The notes beneath the pieces are model-generated. The model ran no database searches. It had not been told where the DNA came from and worked only from the letters and a program-made list of their open reading frames with translations. From an uncultured Verrucomicrobiota bacterium (GTDB lineage Bacteria > Verrucomicrobiota > Kiritimatiellia > Kiritimatiellales > Tichowtungiaceae): a stretch of DNA of 64,000 nt. Both the position numbers and the translations under genes were made by a program. Positions within the stretch are counted from its first letter, which is position 1, and every line of letters starts with the position of its first letter. Location: assembly GCA_903831085.1 (NCBI GenBank), contig CAIKWE010000031.1, positions 1 to 64,000 of the forward strand, in the 5' to 3' direction. Below, one piece after another: positions 42,519 to 47,684 of the stretch.

Positions 42519-43148
42519 TCGATCATACTCCCCTGGGTTCGTTCTGTTTGGAAAATCAACGGCTGGAACTGTAACAGCGGCGCGGGGCGCGGCACAAGCG
42601 TTTCTTTGAGGCCTGTGGAAATTTCCGGCCCGCGCGGCAGACCGCAGGCCTGAGTCTTCAGGCTTTAGGCCGACGGCGACAGGATGCTTTCAGCCAGACG
42701 GCGTATTCTTTCTGATCGATTTCTACGGCAAATATTTATCGCTTCACTCGGCCAGCTTCTTGAGCGCGTTGTGATAGCGCCGCATGCCGCGTTCCGCAAT
42801 TTTCATCTGAAAATTGGCATTTGGGGCAGCAGCCTTCGTATGGCCGCCCCCGTTTGGGCTGCGGCCTTCTGCCTTTTGGCTTTTGGGCTTATCGGTCATG
42901 TGAGAACTGTGTTTATAACGTCCGATTTTGGCAAGTCCGGATTGTCGGCACCTCAAGCCTATAGCCTAAGGTCTATGGCCTAAAGCCTTCTCAAAGATCT
43001 GCCCCAGACAGGATTTTCTGCGCCTACGGCTTGCCCTTCGGGGCCGTCCTGTCAACGACAGTCCTGCCTCACTGCGCTGCGCTTGTGTGAACCTAAGGTT
43101 CTCATCCCGTCCTCATTCATCATTCATAGTTCATCATTCTGAATGTGG

Positions 43149-43222
43149 TGCCTCGGACAGGAGTCGAACCTGTAACCCTCAGATTCGAAATCTGATGCTC
43201 TATCCAGTTGAGCTACCGGGGC
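43149..43222 (-). tRNA. tRNA-Arg (TCG)
   Basis: Reverse: GCCCCGGTAGCTCAACTGGATAGAGCATCAGATTTCGAATCTGAGGGTTACAGGTTCGACTCCTGTCCGAGGCA. Confidence 0.93.
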
Positions 43223-43382
43223 GTTTGGAAGTGATGAACGATAAGCGATGATCGCTGAATGTGCGAAGAGATTTTTCACCACAGAGTCCACAGAGGACAC
43301 GGAGAAGATTTGTCTCTCGCAAAGACGCCAAGTCGCAGAGATTTTATGCGCATTTTGCGCCCTTTCGCGGCAGAATACTCCC

Positions 43383-43490
43383 ATGGATCACCTGACTCCA
43401 AAGATGCGCTCATGGAATATGTCGCGGATACGCGGAACAGATACAAAACCCGAGGTTCTCGTCCGCTCCATGTTGCACCGCGCCCCATAG
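43383..43490 (+). pseudogene. vsr: N-terminal remnant of a Vsr very-short-patch repair endonuclease
   Basis: MDHLTPKMRSWNMSRIRGTDTKPEVLVRSMLHRAP*; matches the Vsr N-terminus (T-x-x-x-RSxxMSxIRGxxTKPE) then stops. Confidence 0.7.
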
Positions 43491-43596
43491 AAACTAGGCG
43501 CCGTTCCATATAAGAACATTTGTTCGCCTTGTTCTGGTATTTTTACAGCGTGCGATTATGCTCGGCCTGCAAAGAAGCCAAGGACACAACGCCGCT

Positions 43597-44589
43597 ATGC
43601 GATACTGGTGGGTTAATCATAATCAGACATTCCGACAAGAATTTGGCGGCGGATATATCTGGTGTCCAAAGAAGAATCGCAACGGGCAGCAAAACCACTT
43701 CTATGAAACGGTGCGAGAGGTTGCTCCGGGAGATGTCGTTTTCTCTTTTTCCGACACCCGAATTCAAGGATTTGGGTTCGCAAAAACCCACTGTTATTCA
43801 TGCCCAAGGCCAAATGAGTTTGGTCGAATTGGCGATTCTTGGGATCACAGCGGCTGGCGCGTAGATGTTGCCTTCCAAAAGCTCGCCATTCCTCTCCGCC
43901 CCATAGATTACAAGGATCTTTTTGCCCCGCTTCTTCCAGAAAAATATGCGCCGATACGGGCTGAAACTGGCTATGGAAACCAGGGAGCTTATTTTTCAGA
44001 AGTTACTAAAGCCATCGCCCTTTTAATCGCCAATCTTTCCGACCCAACACTTATTCATCTTTTTGATACGCACACGGCCAACGAAACGCCGGGCGGATAT
44101 GAAACGGCCGCAACGGCTCCGTTGTGCTCTATTTTAGAGTGGGAAGACCAACAGCAACGGATCATAGAAAGCTCCACTGAGGTTTCAGAAACCACACGAA
44201 AAGCCCTTGTCTATGCGCGAAAAGGACAGGGCCTGTTCAAACAGCGTGTTTCTGAATTTGAAAAAGCTTGTCGTATTACTCGGGTCAACAACCCTGCTCA
44301 TCTAATCGCAAGTCATATAAAACCGTGGCGCGAGTCAAATAATGAGGAACGTCTTAGCGCCGGGAACGGCCTTCTCCTTACGCCATCTATAGACCACCTC
44401 TTTGATCGAGGCTTTATCACCTTCGCGGATGATGGCGAGGTTGCTATATCGCCTGTGGCCGATAAAGTTTCGCTCGAACGAATGGGCGTAAAAACCGTTG
44501 CCCCGCTATTCGTGGGGAGTTTTAACTCCGATCAAAAATATTTTCTCCGCTATCACCGAGAGGAAATTTTCCTACAAGCCGCCTCTTAG
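43597..44589 (+). CDS. HNH endonuclease, restriction-type, with N-terminal EVE/PUA-like region
   Basis: MRYWWVNHNQTFRQEFGGGYIWCPKKNRNG..PGDVVFSFSDTRIQGFG; C-terminal LIASHIKPWRESNNEERLSAGNGLLLTPSIDHLFDRGFITF. Confidence 0.8.
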   Translation: MRYWWVNHNQTFRQEFGGGYIWCPKKNRNGQQNHFYETVREVAPGDVVFSFSDTRIQGFGFAKTHCYSCPRPNEFGRIGDSWDHSGWRVDVAFQKLAIPLRPIDYKDLFAPLLPEKYAPIRAETGYGNQGAYFSEVTKAIALLIANLSDPTLIHLFDTHTANETPGGYETAATAPLCSILEWEDQQQRIIESSTEVSETTRKALVYARKGQGLFKQRVSEFEKACRITRVNNPAHLIASHIKPWRESNNEERLSAGNGLLLTPSIDHLFDRGFITFADDGEVAISPVADKVSLERMGVKTVAPLFVGSFNSDQKYFLRYHREEIFLQAAS

Positions 44590-44849
44590 CCGAGAACGCG
44601 ATGTATATCTTCGGTTGTTTCGATGTAGCCTCCCTCGCCCAACTGCTTTTTGATGTTCCGAATAATTCTGCGGTAATACCTCAAGATCGCTTGCGCCTCC
44701 TCGACACCGTTTACTTCGGCAATGTGTCCATACGAAACGCCGTGTTTGTAGTAGCCAACGGGTTCTTCGTACAGCGCCACGCGACAAGTCAGCCCGTCGA
44801 GCACTTGTCCCCACTCCTGCTCGTTCAACTCTACTTTTGGTTTTTTCAT
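44586..44849 (-). CDS. Small hypothetical protein
   Basis: 87 aa, acidic/basic mixed, MKKPKVELNEQEWGQVLDGLTCRVALYEEPVGYYKHGVSYGHIAEVNGVEEAQAILRYYRRII. Confidence 0.6.
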   Translation of the reverse strand: MKKPKVELNEQEWGQVLDGLTCRVALYEEPVGYYKHGVSYGHIAEVNGVEEAQAILRYYRRIIRNIKKQLGEGGYIETTEDIHRVLG

Positions 44850-45017: not shown

Positions 45018-45878
45018 ATGGCGGCTGAAACTGTGGTTCCCGACTTTTTTGTACAAATCCTGTCGAAATATTGGTGGATGCTGCTAATCCCTGCGATTCC
45101 GCCTTTGATGAAAATGTTCGCGCCACTGATTAAAGGCAAGGTCGGCGAGGGCGTGGTGAATCTGGCGGCGAAACTCCGGCTCGACCCGAACGTGTACCAC
45201 ATGATGAAAGATGTGACGATCCCGTCAAAAACCGGCACGACGCAGATCGACCATGTGATCGTTTCAAAGTTCGGCCTGTTCGTGATCGAAACCAAAAATT
45301 ACAAGGGCTGGATTTATGCCGACACCAAAGACGCCAAATGGACGCAGGTTAATTTCAAACAAAAGAACCGTTTCCAAAACCCGTTGCGCCAGAACTACGC
45401 CCACATTTGCGCGCTGTCCGAACTGCTCGAACTCCCGAAGGACAAAATCCTCGGCGTGGTCTGCTTCATGGGTGATGCGAAGTTTAAAACCGAAATCCCG
45501 AGCGGCGTTTTTCTGGAAGGCCGCTACGTCAACTACATCCAGTCGTTCCAGACTCCGGCTTTCTCCGAGGCCGAGGTTTCCGGCATTATTCAGAAACTTG
45601 AATCCGAACGCCTTGAGCGCGGGTTCAAAACCAACCGTCAACATATCTGGCAACTCAAGGATCGCCATTCGACCGGAGGGTTTCGCTCCGTCGAACCCGG
45701 CGGCGACGGAGCGCCGCCCTCCAAAAATGATTTTGCTGTTACTGGTTGTGCTAAAAGCGCCTGCCCGAAATGCGGAGCCGCAATGGTTCTACGAACTGCA
45801 AAAAAAGGCGCTAACGCTGGAAATCAGTTCTGGGGTTGCTCCCGCTATCCCGACTGCAAATCGATTCGCCCGGTTTGA
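45018..45878 (+). CDS. NERD-domain nuclease-related protein with C-terminal topoisomerase-type C4 zinc finger
   Basis: TGTTQIDHVIVSKFGLFVIETKNYKGWIYAD; CPKCGAAMVLRTAKKGANAGNQFWGCSRYPDCKSIRPV. Confidence 0.88.
   Translation: MAAETVVPDFFVQILSKYWWMLLIPAIPPLMKMFAPLIKGKVGEGVVNLAAKLRLDPNVYHMMKDVTIPSKTGTTQIDHVIVSKFGLFVIETKNYKGWIYADTKDAKWTQVNFKQKNRFQNPLRQNYAHICALSELLELPKDKILGVVCFMGDAKFKTEIPSGVFLEGRYVNYIQSFQTPAFSEAEVSGIIQKLESERLERGFKTNRQHIWQLKDRHSTGGFRSVEPGGDGAPPSKNDFAVTGCAKSACPKCGAAMVLRTAKKGANAGNQFWGCSRYPDCKSIRPV
45675..45722. repeat. In-frame hairpin between NERD and zinc-finger domains
   Basis: GGAGGGTTTCGCTCCGTCGAACCCGGCGGCGACGGAGCGCCGCCCTCC. Confidence 0.7.
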
Positions 45879-46307: not shown

Positions 46308-46688
46308 ATGCCCCGTATTTTGATTGTAGATGACGCTCCGTCCATTCTGATGCTGCTCTCTGCGCTTTTGACCGGAGAGGGCTATGAAGTTGGCACGGCC
46401 AAAAACGGTGAAGAGGCCGTCAAGCTCCTGAAGGCCGAGACGTTCGATCTGATGATTTCTGACATTAACATGCGGCCCGTTAACGGGGTGGAGCTGCTGC
46501 GCAAGACCAGAAAATCCTATCCGAAGATGGGTGTCATCATGCTGACGGCCTACGAGACGATGTTTACCGCTGATCAGGCCACGGAAAACGGAGCCTTCGC
46601 CTACGTCGTCAAGCCCTTCAAGCGCGCCAAGCTGCTTGAGACGGTGCAGCAAGGGCTTGAGAAATACGGCGTCTCTGAAAAAATCTGA
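46308..46688 (+). CDS. Stand-alone response regulator receiver protein (1 of 3)
   Basis: MPRILIVDDAPSILMLLSALL..DLMISDINM..IMLTAY..YVVKPFKRAKLLETV. Confidence 0.9.
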   Translation: MPRILIVDDAPSILMLLSALLTGEGYEVGTAKNGEEAVKLLKAETFDLMISDINMRPVNGVELLRKTRKSYPKMGVIMLTAYETMFTADQATENGAFAYVVKPFKRAKLLETVQQGLEKYGVSEKI

Positions 46689-46841
46689 CCTTCGGGGCGG
46701 CGGCTCCGCCGGTCCGAATCGGGGGTTGAAAAAGCAGACGAAGAGGTGTAGCTTGATGGTTTGTGGGTTTCTTTTTCTCGATGCAGGAATGCCGCCCGCA
46801 GGTCGTAGCAAGATAGGTTGAAAGATAGAGGTGTTTAAACT

Positions 46842-47207
46842 ATGCCACGCATTTTGATTGTCGATGACGCGCCGTCCATTCTGTTGATGCTCTCGAAGCT
46901 TCTGACCGAAGAGGGGCACGCGGTTGCCACGGCCAAAAACGGCGAAGAGGCCGTCAAGCTCCTGCAGACCGAATCGTTCGATCTGATGATCTCAGACCTC
47001 AACATGCGGCCCGTTAATGGAGCGGATCTGTTGCGCAAGACCAGAAAATCCTATCCGAAGATGGGCGTCATCATGCTCACGGCCTACGAGTCGATGTATA
47101 CCGCCGAACAAGCCGCAGAAAACGGAGCCTTCGCTTATATCGTCAAGCCCTTCAAAACCGCTAAGCTGCTCGAGACGGTACACCGCGGGCTTGCGTATTA
47201 CGTATAA
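46842..47207 (+). CDS. Stand-alone response regulator receiver protein (2 of 3)
   Basis: MPRILIVDDAPSILLMLSKLL..DLMISDLNM..IMLTAY..YIVKPFKTAKLLETV. Confidence 0.9.
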   Translation: MPRILIVDDAPSILLMLSKLLTEEGHAVATAKNGEEAVKLLQTESFDLMISDLNMRPVNGADLLRKTRKSYPKMGVIMLTAYESMYTAEQAAENGAFAYIVKPFKTAKLLETVHRGLAYYV

Positions 47208-47309
47208 ATGTAAACTCCGGGGCGGCTTCATCGGGAGCGGTCTCCCTGTGCAGACACGGCTCCCGCCATCTATAACGGCGCGTATAGAAACGGAAGGGGA
47301 ATTTAAATC

Positions 47310-47684
47310 ATGCCTCGTATTCTGGTCGTAGACGATTCTCCGCCTTGTCTGATGCTGCTCTCCAAACTTCTCGCCGGACTGGGGCACGAGGTCGCCACGG
47401 CCAAAAACGGTAAAGAAGCGCTCGAGGTTCTTCAGGCCGGGCCGTTCGATCTGCTGGTCTCGGATCTGAACATGGAGCCCATTAACGGGATGGAGCTGCT
47501 GCGCGCGGTCAAGGTCTCCTGCGTAAAAATGGAAGTCATCCTGGTCACTGCCTATGCGTCGCTTTACAGCACCGACGAGGCTAAAAAATGCGGAGCTTTC
47601 GCCTATATCACCAAACCTTTCAAAACCGCTATGCTGTTCGAGACGGTGCATCGAGCGCTTGAGCGCTCCGGCGCCACGGCATGA
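47310..47684 (+). CDS. Stand-alone response regulator receiver protein (3 of 3)
   Basis: MPRILVVDDSPPCLMLLSKLL..DLLVSDLNM..ILVTAY..YITKPFKTAMLFETV. Confidence 0.9.
   Translation: MPRILVVDDSPPCLMLLSKLLAGLGHEVATAKNGKEALEVLQAGPFDLLVSDLNMEPINGMELLRAVKVSCVKMEVILVTAYASLYSTDEAKKCGAFAYITKPFKTAMLFETVHRALERSGATA

Follow-up and report, generated by a model that had tools for sequence, protein, structure and literature searches.

Analysis of the 64,000-nucleotide stretch of DNA considered here (the window) indicates, with a probability of roughly 0.88, that the gene at 43597-44589 encodes a VcaM4I-like type IV (modification-dependent) endonuclease, solitary and NTP-independent, and predicted from sequence comparison to have been acquired horizontally into a tRNA-Arg(TCG)-secA hotspot that formerly held a Vsr-linked C5-methyltransferase restriction-modification (R-M) system.

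Organization of the locus

The locus contains the following features:

43146..43222, minus strand: tRNA-Arg (TCG), identified with ARAGORN and Rfam; anchor of the hotspot
43383..43490, plus strand: vsr remnant (Pfam PF03852), codons 1-34 plus one stray codon and TAG; catalytic part gone
43597..44589, plus strand: predicted EVE-HNH modification-dependent endonuclease of the VcaM4I family, 330 aa, intact (phmmer, profile and residue comparisons)
43597..44046, plus strand: EVE (PUA-superfamily) reader domain, approximately residues 1-150 (VcaM4I mapping; Foldseek matches to 6yex, 2eve and 5j3e)
44182..44586, plus strand: HNH (beta-beta-alpha-Me) nuclease domain, approximately residues 196-330 (PF13391 HNH_2, E 3.5e-12; VcaM4I alignment)
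44586..44849, minus strand: orphan 87-aa protein, convergent with the nuclease gene and overlapping its stop
45018..45878, plus strand: NERD nuclease-related domain with topoisomerase-type zinc ribbon (PF08378, E 2e-30; PF01396, E 8e-12)

The tRNA-Arg gene also adjoins the variable region in congeners G003, G005, G006, G008 and G011. A direct repeat of the tRNA end, the mark of an integrase-type island, was looked for and none was seen. Between the tRNA and the vsr stub (43280-43340) lies an unusual repeat-like sequence, with CACAGAGTCCACAGAGGACAC and TCTCGCAAAGACGCCAAGTCGCAGAG, that is single-copy within the window; a CTCGCAAAG.CGCCAAGTC stretch also occurs upstream of vsr in G009. Genes combining NERD and zinc-ribbon domains are found near vsr at three separate loci (window 45018-45878, L007 5893-6732 and L039 2733-3196). 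Upstream of secA, the window carries three single-domain response regulators in tandem (46308-47684), and longer response-regulator genes (~465 aa) occupy the corresponding place in G003 and G011.

The 87-aa protein has no significant match in Pfam, NCBIfam, PADLOC or PHROGs, and searches of plasmids, phages and viral contigs gave no relatives. Nine of 58 relatives have its gene, and at least eight of these carry an HNH_2 nuclease, vsr, a C5 methyltransferase or a Schlafen-group-3 helicase no more than about 3 kb away from it. By this tally, which is guilt by association without a matched control, the protein represents a candidate defense-associated family.

A vsr relic in a restriction-modification hotspot

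The vsr stub (43383-43490) translates as MDHLTPKMRSWNMSRIRGTDTKPEVLVRSMLHRAP*, with coding sequence at 43383-43487 and a TAG stop at 43488. It matches the Pfam Vsr profile (PF03852) above the gathering score (E 2.1e-7), and its match to NCBIfam TIGR00632 (E 6e-5) falls below the family cut-off, as expected because the gene is truncated. The domain is incomplete: the first 32 of the 74 profile positions are matched before the stop, and 34 of about 140 codons remain, with everything downstream gone, unlike the full-length genes that congeners carry at the same locus. Residues 1-34 of the stub are 76-88% identical to the products of intact congener vsr genes. These coordinates agree exactly with the sequence-only reading, which had described a Vsr N-terminus ending in a stop with an intact HNH gene about 100 bp further on; the measured spacing is 106 bp.

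No further vsr remains were detectable in 43486-43610, where alignment scores resembled those of shuffled sequences or of other window fragments for most references; the G013 reference reached 0.7% of shuffles, and in the G009 comparison a third of random window fragments scored equally high. Elsewhere in the window nothing rose above noise, and the stub is the single Vsr match in the whole genome. We also considered insertion of the EVE-HNH gene into vsr, and rejected it: the 3' part of vsr was sought downstream of EVE-HNH and nothing was found.

Comparison of the interval from azoR/tRNA-Arg(TCG) to secA across 13 congeners showed it to be a hotspot of restriction systems with a C5 methyltransferase. 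G009 harbors an intact vsr with an MvaI/BcnI REase and an HTH-C5 methyltransferase, tRNA-Arg not being found in its interval. G008 presents tRNA-Arg, a vsr gene with its middle replaced, an orphan gene and a C5 methyltransferase, while G005 has tRNA-Arg followed by C-terminal vsr shards up to the contig end, so that broken vsr copies occur at the hotspot in two congeners besides the window genome. G011 combines a C5 methyltransferase with a GHKL ATPase and an HNH nuclease, and a SinI REase with a C5 methyltransferase adjoins secA in G002, where the contig ends. G003 and G006 show no R-M system at the site, and the interval of the other congeners is unreadable because of contig breaks or rearrangement. 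The window locus shares the hotspot and a homologous vsr with the Vsr-containing, C5-methyltransferase type II system of G009; unlike that locus, it retains neither a methyltransferase nor a type II REase, and hence no complete type II system.

In both the window (43383-43490) and G008 (L079 4144-4251), vsr is broken at an almost identical codon (33-34) and followed by unrelated sequence, which possibly reflects one shared inactivation event; DNA homology between the two spans the tRNA and then vsr. No C5 methyltransferase (PF00145) was found in the whole assembly (94.6% complete), a search that was positive in 10 of 14 control genomes, and the earlier statement that a cytosine methyltransferase is absent thus extends from the locus to the genome. 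Because of the congener synteny and of the lack of a detectable C5 methyltransferase in the genome, we conclude that the stub is a real relic of a C5-methyltransferase R-M system lost from the site, an origin that had been proposed from the letters and is now backed by synteny.

An intact homolog of VcaM4I

The EVE-HNH gene begins at an ATG at 43597, 106 bp past the vsr stop, and stays open to 44589 (330 aa); the mechanical ORF starts at 43558, and we placed the start at the methionine where homologs begin. A phmmer search against PDB sequences identified VcaM4I (6yex and three further entries) over residues 1-326, essentially full length, at 41% identity (E 1.2e-78), and a profile of nine homologs matched VcaM4I with E 2.4e-114. 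VcaM4I is a characterized EVE-HNH modification-dependent endonuclease in which P24, W82 and Y130 form a pocket that takes the flipped 5mC or 5hmC, Q10, T11, E15 and W22 touch the base edge, and cleavage uses H224, D250 and D254; it restricts the 5hmC phage T4gt, and an S23L change inactivates it (PMC7897488).

Mapped onto VcaM4I, the pocket of the window protein consists of Q10, T11, E15, W22, C23, P24, W82, Q129 and Y132, retaining every VcaM4I pocket residue (Q10, T11, E15, W22, S23, P24, W82, Q128 and Y130) except S23, which is replaced by cysteine. The VcaM4I HNH site H224/N241/D250/D254 aligns with H240, N257, D266 and D270. Pocket residues other than those at the S23 and Q128 positions are invariant across the nine-sequence alignment, as are H240, N257 and D266. 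The position of VcaM4I F132 is occupied by S134 in the window protein and by alanine or threonine in homologs, and C23 is also present in the close homologs L109 and L007. The window protein thus has in common with the Vibrio enzyme (PDB 6yex, 6yjb, 6ykf and 6ymg; PMC7897488) its domain order, length, base-flipping pocket and HNH catalytic residues, and differs from it in the S23-to-C and F132-to-S substitutions, a longer inter-domain region and the host.

An AlphaFold model built from the nine-sequence alignment without templates reached a mean pLDDT of 65, with a mostly confident N-terminal domain and a weak HNH half (pLDDT below 50 in places); the single-sequence model (pLDDT 36) was of no use. 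Foldseek searches with this low-confidence model returned 6yex (VcaM4I), then EVE proteins that stand alone, 2eve among them, and the complex of THYN1 with 5mC (5j3e), with E-values for these three of 6e-26 to 4e-4. The fold check proposed for the N-terminal region thus did recover EVE similarity, and together with the full-length VcaM4I match it bears out the suggestion of an EVE/PUA-like module. The reading of an intact HNH nuclease was likewise confirmed by the PF13391 match and a frame that runs uninterrupted over the full length of VcaM4I. The further suggestion of a stand-alone type IV-like enzyme is supported, at the level of sequence, by homology to VcaM4I with retained pocket and catalytic residues; there is no PF00145 match in the genome and no methyltransferase gene adjoining it that could be its cognate.

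Distribution and origin of the EVE-HNH gene

With a GC3 of 0.45, EVE-HNH has the lowest value among the 38 long ORFs in the window, the flanking housekeeping genes (azoR, trp, gmk and secA) lying at 0.72-0.78. The gene occurs in 1 of 14 genus members; in two other congeners the matches (~30-36% identity) fall mostly in the HNH half. Across the phylum, 10 of 388 sampled genomes carry it. Its full-length relatives are located within a type I R-M operon, next to AAA-ATPase genes or on plasmids; in phage and viral collections the only matches were to the HNH domain, in two Ruminococcus phages, and no full-length EVE-HNH turned up. Among the loci examined, vsr was found near EVE-HNH only in L007 and a C5 methyltransferase only in L004; six other full-length EVE-HNH loci matched neither vsr nor any of the C5 methyltransferase queries.

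On the Verrucomicrobia contig L007 (5001-9804), the N-terminal third of EVE-HNH is separated by 4 kb from its last 33 residues; a 111-aa gene is present in two copies, one after each piece, and a NERD gene and a full vsr lie between the pieces. A rearranged duplication has destroyed EVE-HNH on this contig.

A host without C5 methylation can accommodate a nuclease that reads 5mC, and a conflict between C5-methyltransferase R-M systems and a methylation-dependent HNH nuclease has been documented in Pectobacterium, where PcaRCI and PcaRCII are incompatible unless one is lost or silenced (PMC8989522). There, both coexist via promoter methylation, whereas the window genome has lost the R-M system. 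The notion that EVE-HNH carriers avoid C5 methyltransferases phylum-wide found no support, as 4 of 10 carriers encode one versus 217 of 388 sampled phylum genomes, a nonsignificant difference (Fisher P = 0.35). Because of this result, and because L004 carries a C5 methyltransferase about 3 kb from EVE-HNH, two genes upstream, it is not established that R-M loss permits EVE-HNH or that the two exclude each other.

Discussion

The sequence-only reading had taken EVE-HNH for the survivor of the same R-M island that left the vsr stub. Its patchy distribution, its GC3 and the location of its relatives in unrelated defense islands lead us to conclude that it probably is not, and that it seems to have reached a defense hotspot later, by lateral transfer. 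A rival explanation, in which vsr, the methyltransferase and EVE-HNH as restriction subunit formed one unit of which EVE-HNH survives, would account for EVE-HNH directly adjoining vsr in the same orientation, for the L007 pieces lying ~0.1-4 kb from a full vsr and for the nearby methyltransferase in L004. We regard it as very unlikely, since the R-M systems at the syntenic site use other nucleases (MvaI/BcnI, SinI or another HNH) and not EVE-HNH, relatives elsewhere mostly lack vsr and matches to the queried C5 methyltransferases, the base composition of EVE-HNH is foreign to its surroundings, and a 5mC-dependent nuclease paired with a C5 methyltransferase would be expected to attack its own DNA.

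More improbable still is that EVE-HNH is non-functional, or acts for instance as a general DNA-repair or competence nuclease rather than in defense against modified DNA. The S23-to-C and F132-to-S changes speak for this reading and may weigh against VcaM4I-like activity, although cysteine is small and shared with L109 and L007, and homologs themselves carry alanine or threonine in place of F132. Against it stand the full-length frame with all catalytic residues kept, the invariance of most pocket residues among nine homologs and the presence of relatives within type I R-M and AAA-ATPase islands and on plasmids. That the vsr fragment should be a product of chance or of assembly, as its 34 codons and the draft state of the genome might suggest, has a negligible probability in view of its E-value (2e-7), of its identity to congener vsr (up to 88%), and of its position relative to tRNA-Arg, which it shares with the broken vsr in G008, the DNA of the two loci being homologous at the tRNA as well as at vsr.

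Under the favored interpretation of a laterally acquired VcaM4I-like enzyme, decay of the resident R-M system, reducing it to the first 34 codons of vsr, would have preceded or accompanied the arrival of EVE-HNH. By analogy with VcaM4I, the EVE domain would flip 5-methyl- or 5-hydroxymethylcytosine of incoming DNA into an aromatic pocket formed by P24, W82 and Y132; this may release autoinhibition by the linker (helix), upon which an HNH domain dimer would cut nearby DNA. From the same analogy we infer the cleavage specificity of the window protein and its putative restriction of phages or plasmids. A more speculative and rather unlikely extension is a guard swap, in which the C5-methylating R-M system decayed, and the 5mC-reading type IV nuclease took its site and bars re-entry of such systems, with the 87-aa protein perhaps acting as an accessory or regulatory component common to the HNH, vsr, methyltransferase and Schlafen-helicase defense modules of the order.

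The window enzyme represents a further EVE-HNH reader, ~41% identical to VcaM4I, of a type already structurally solved, and its added value lies in what comparison across genomes shows of how R-M systems decay and are replaced at a single site. Within one genus, this site presents a natural series of intact R-M with vsr, broken vsr with methyltransferase, shards only, vsr stub with a type IV nuclease, and no R-M at all, a series suited to examining the sequence of steps in R-M decay and whether methyl-dependent nucleases take over from the decayed systems.
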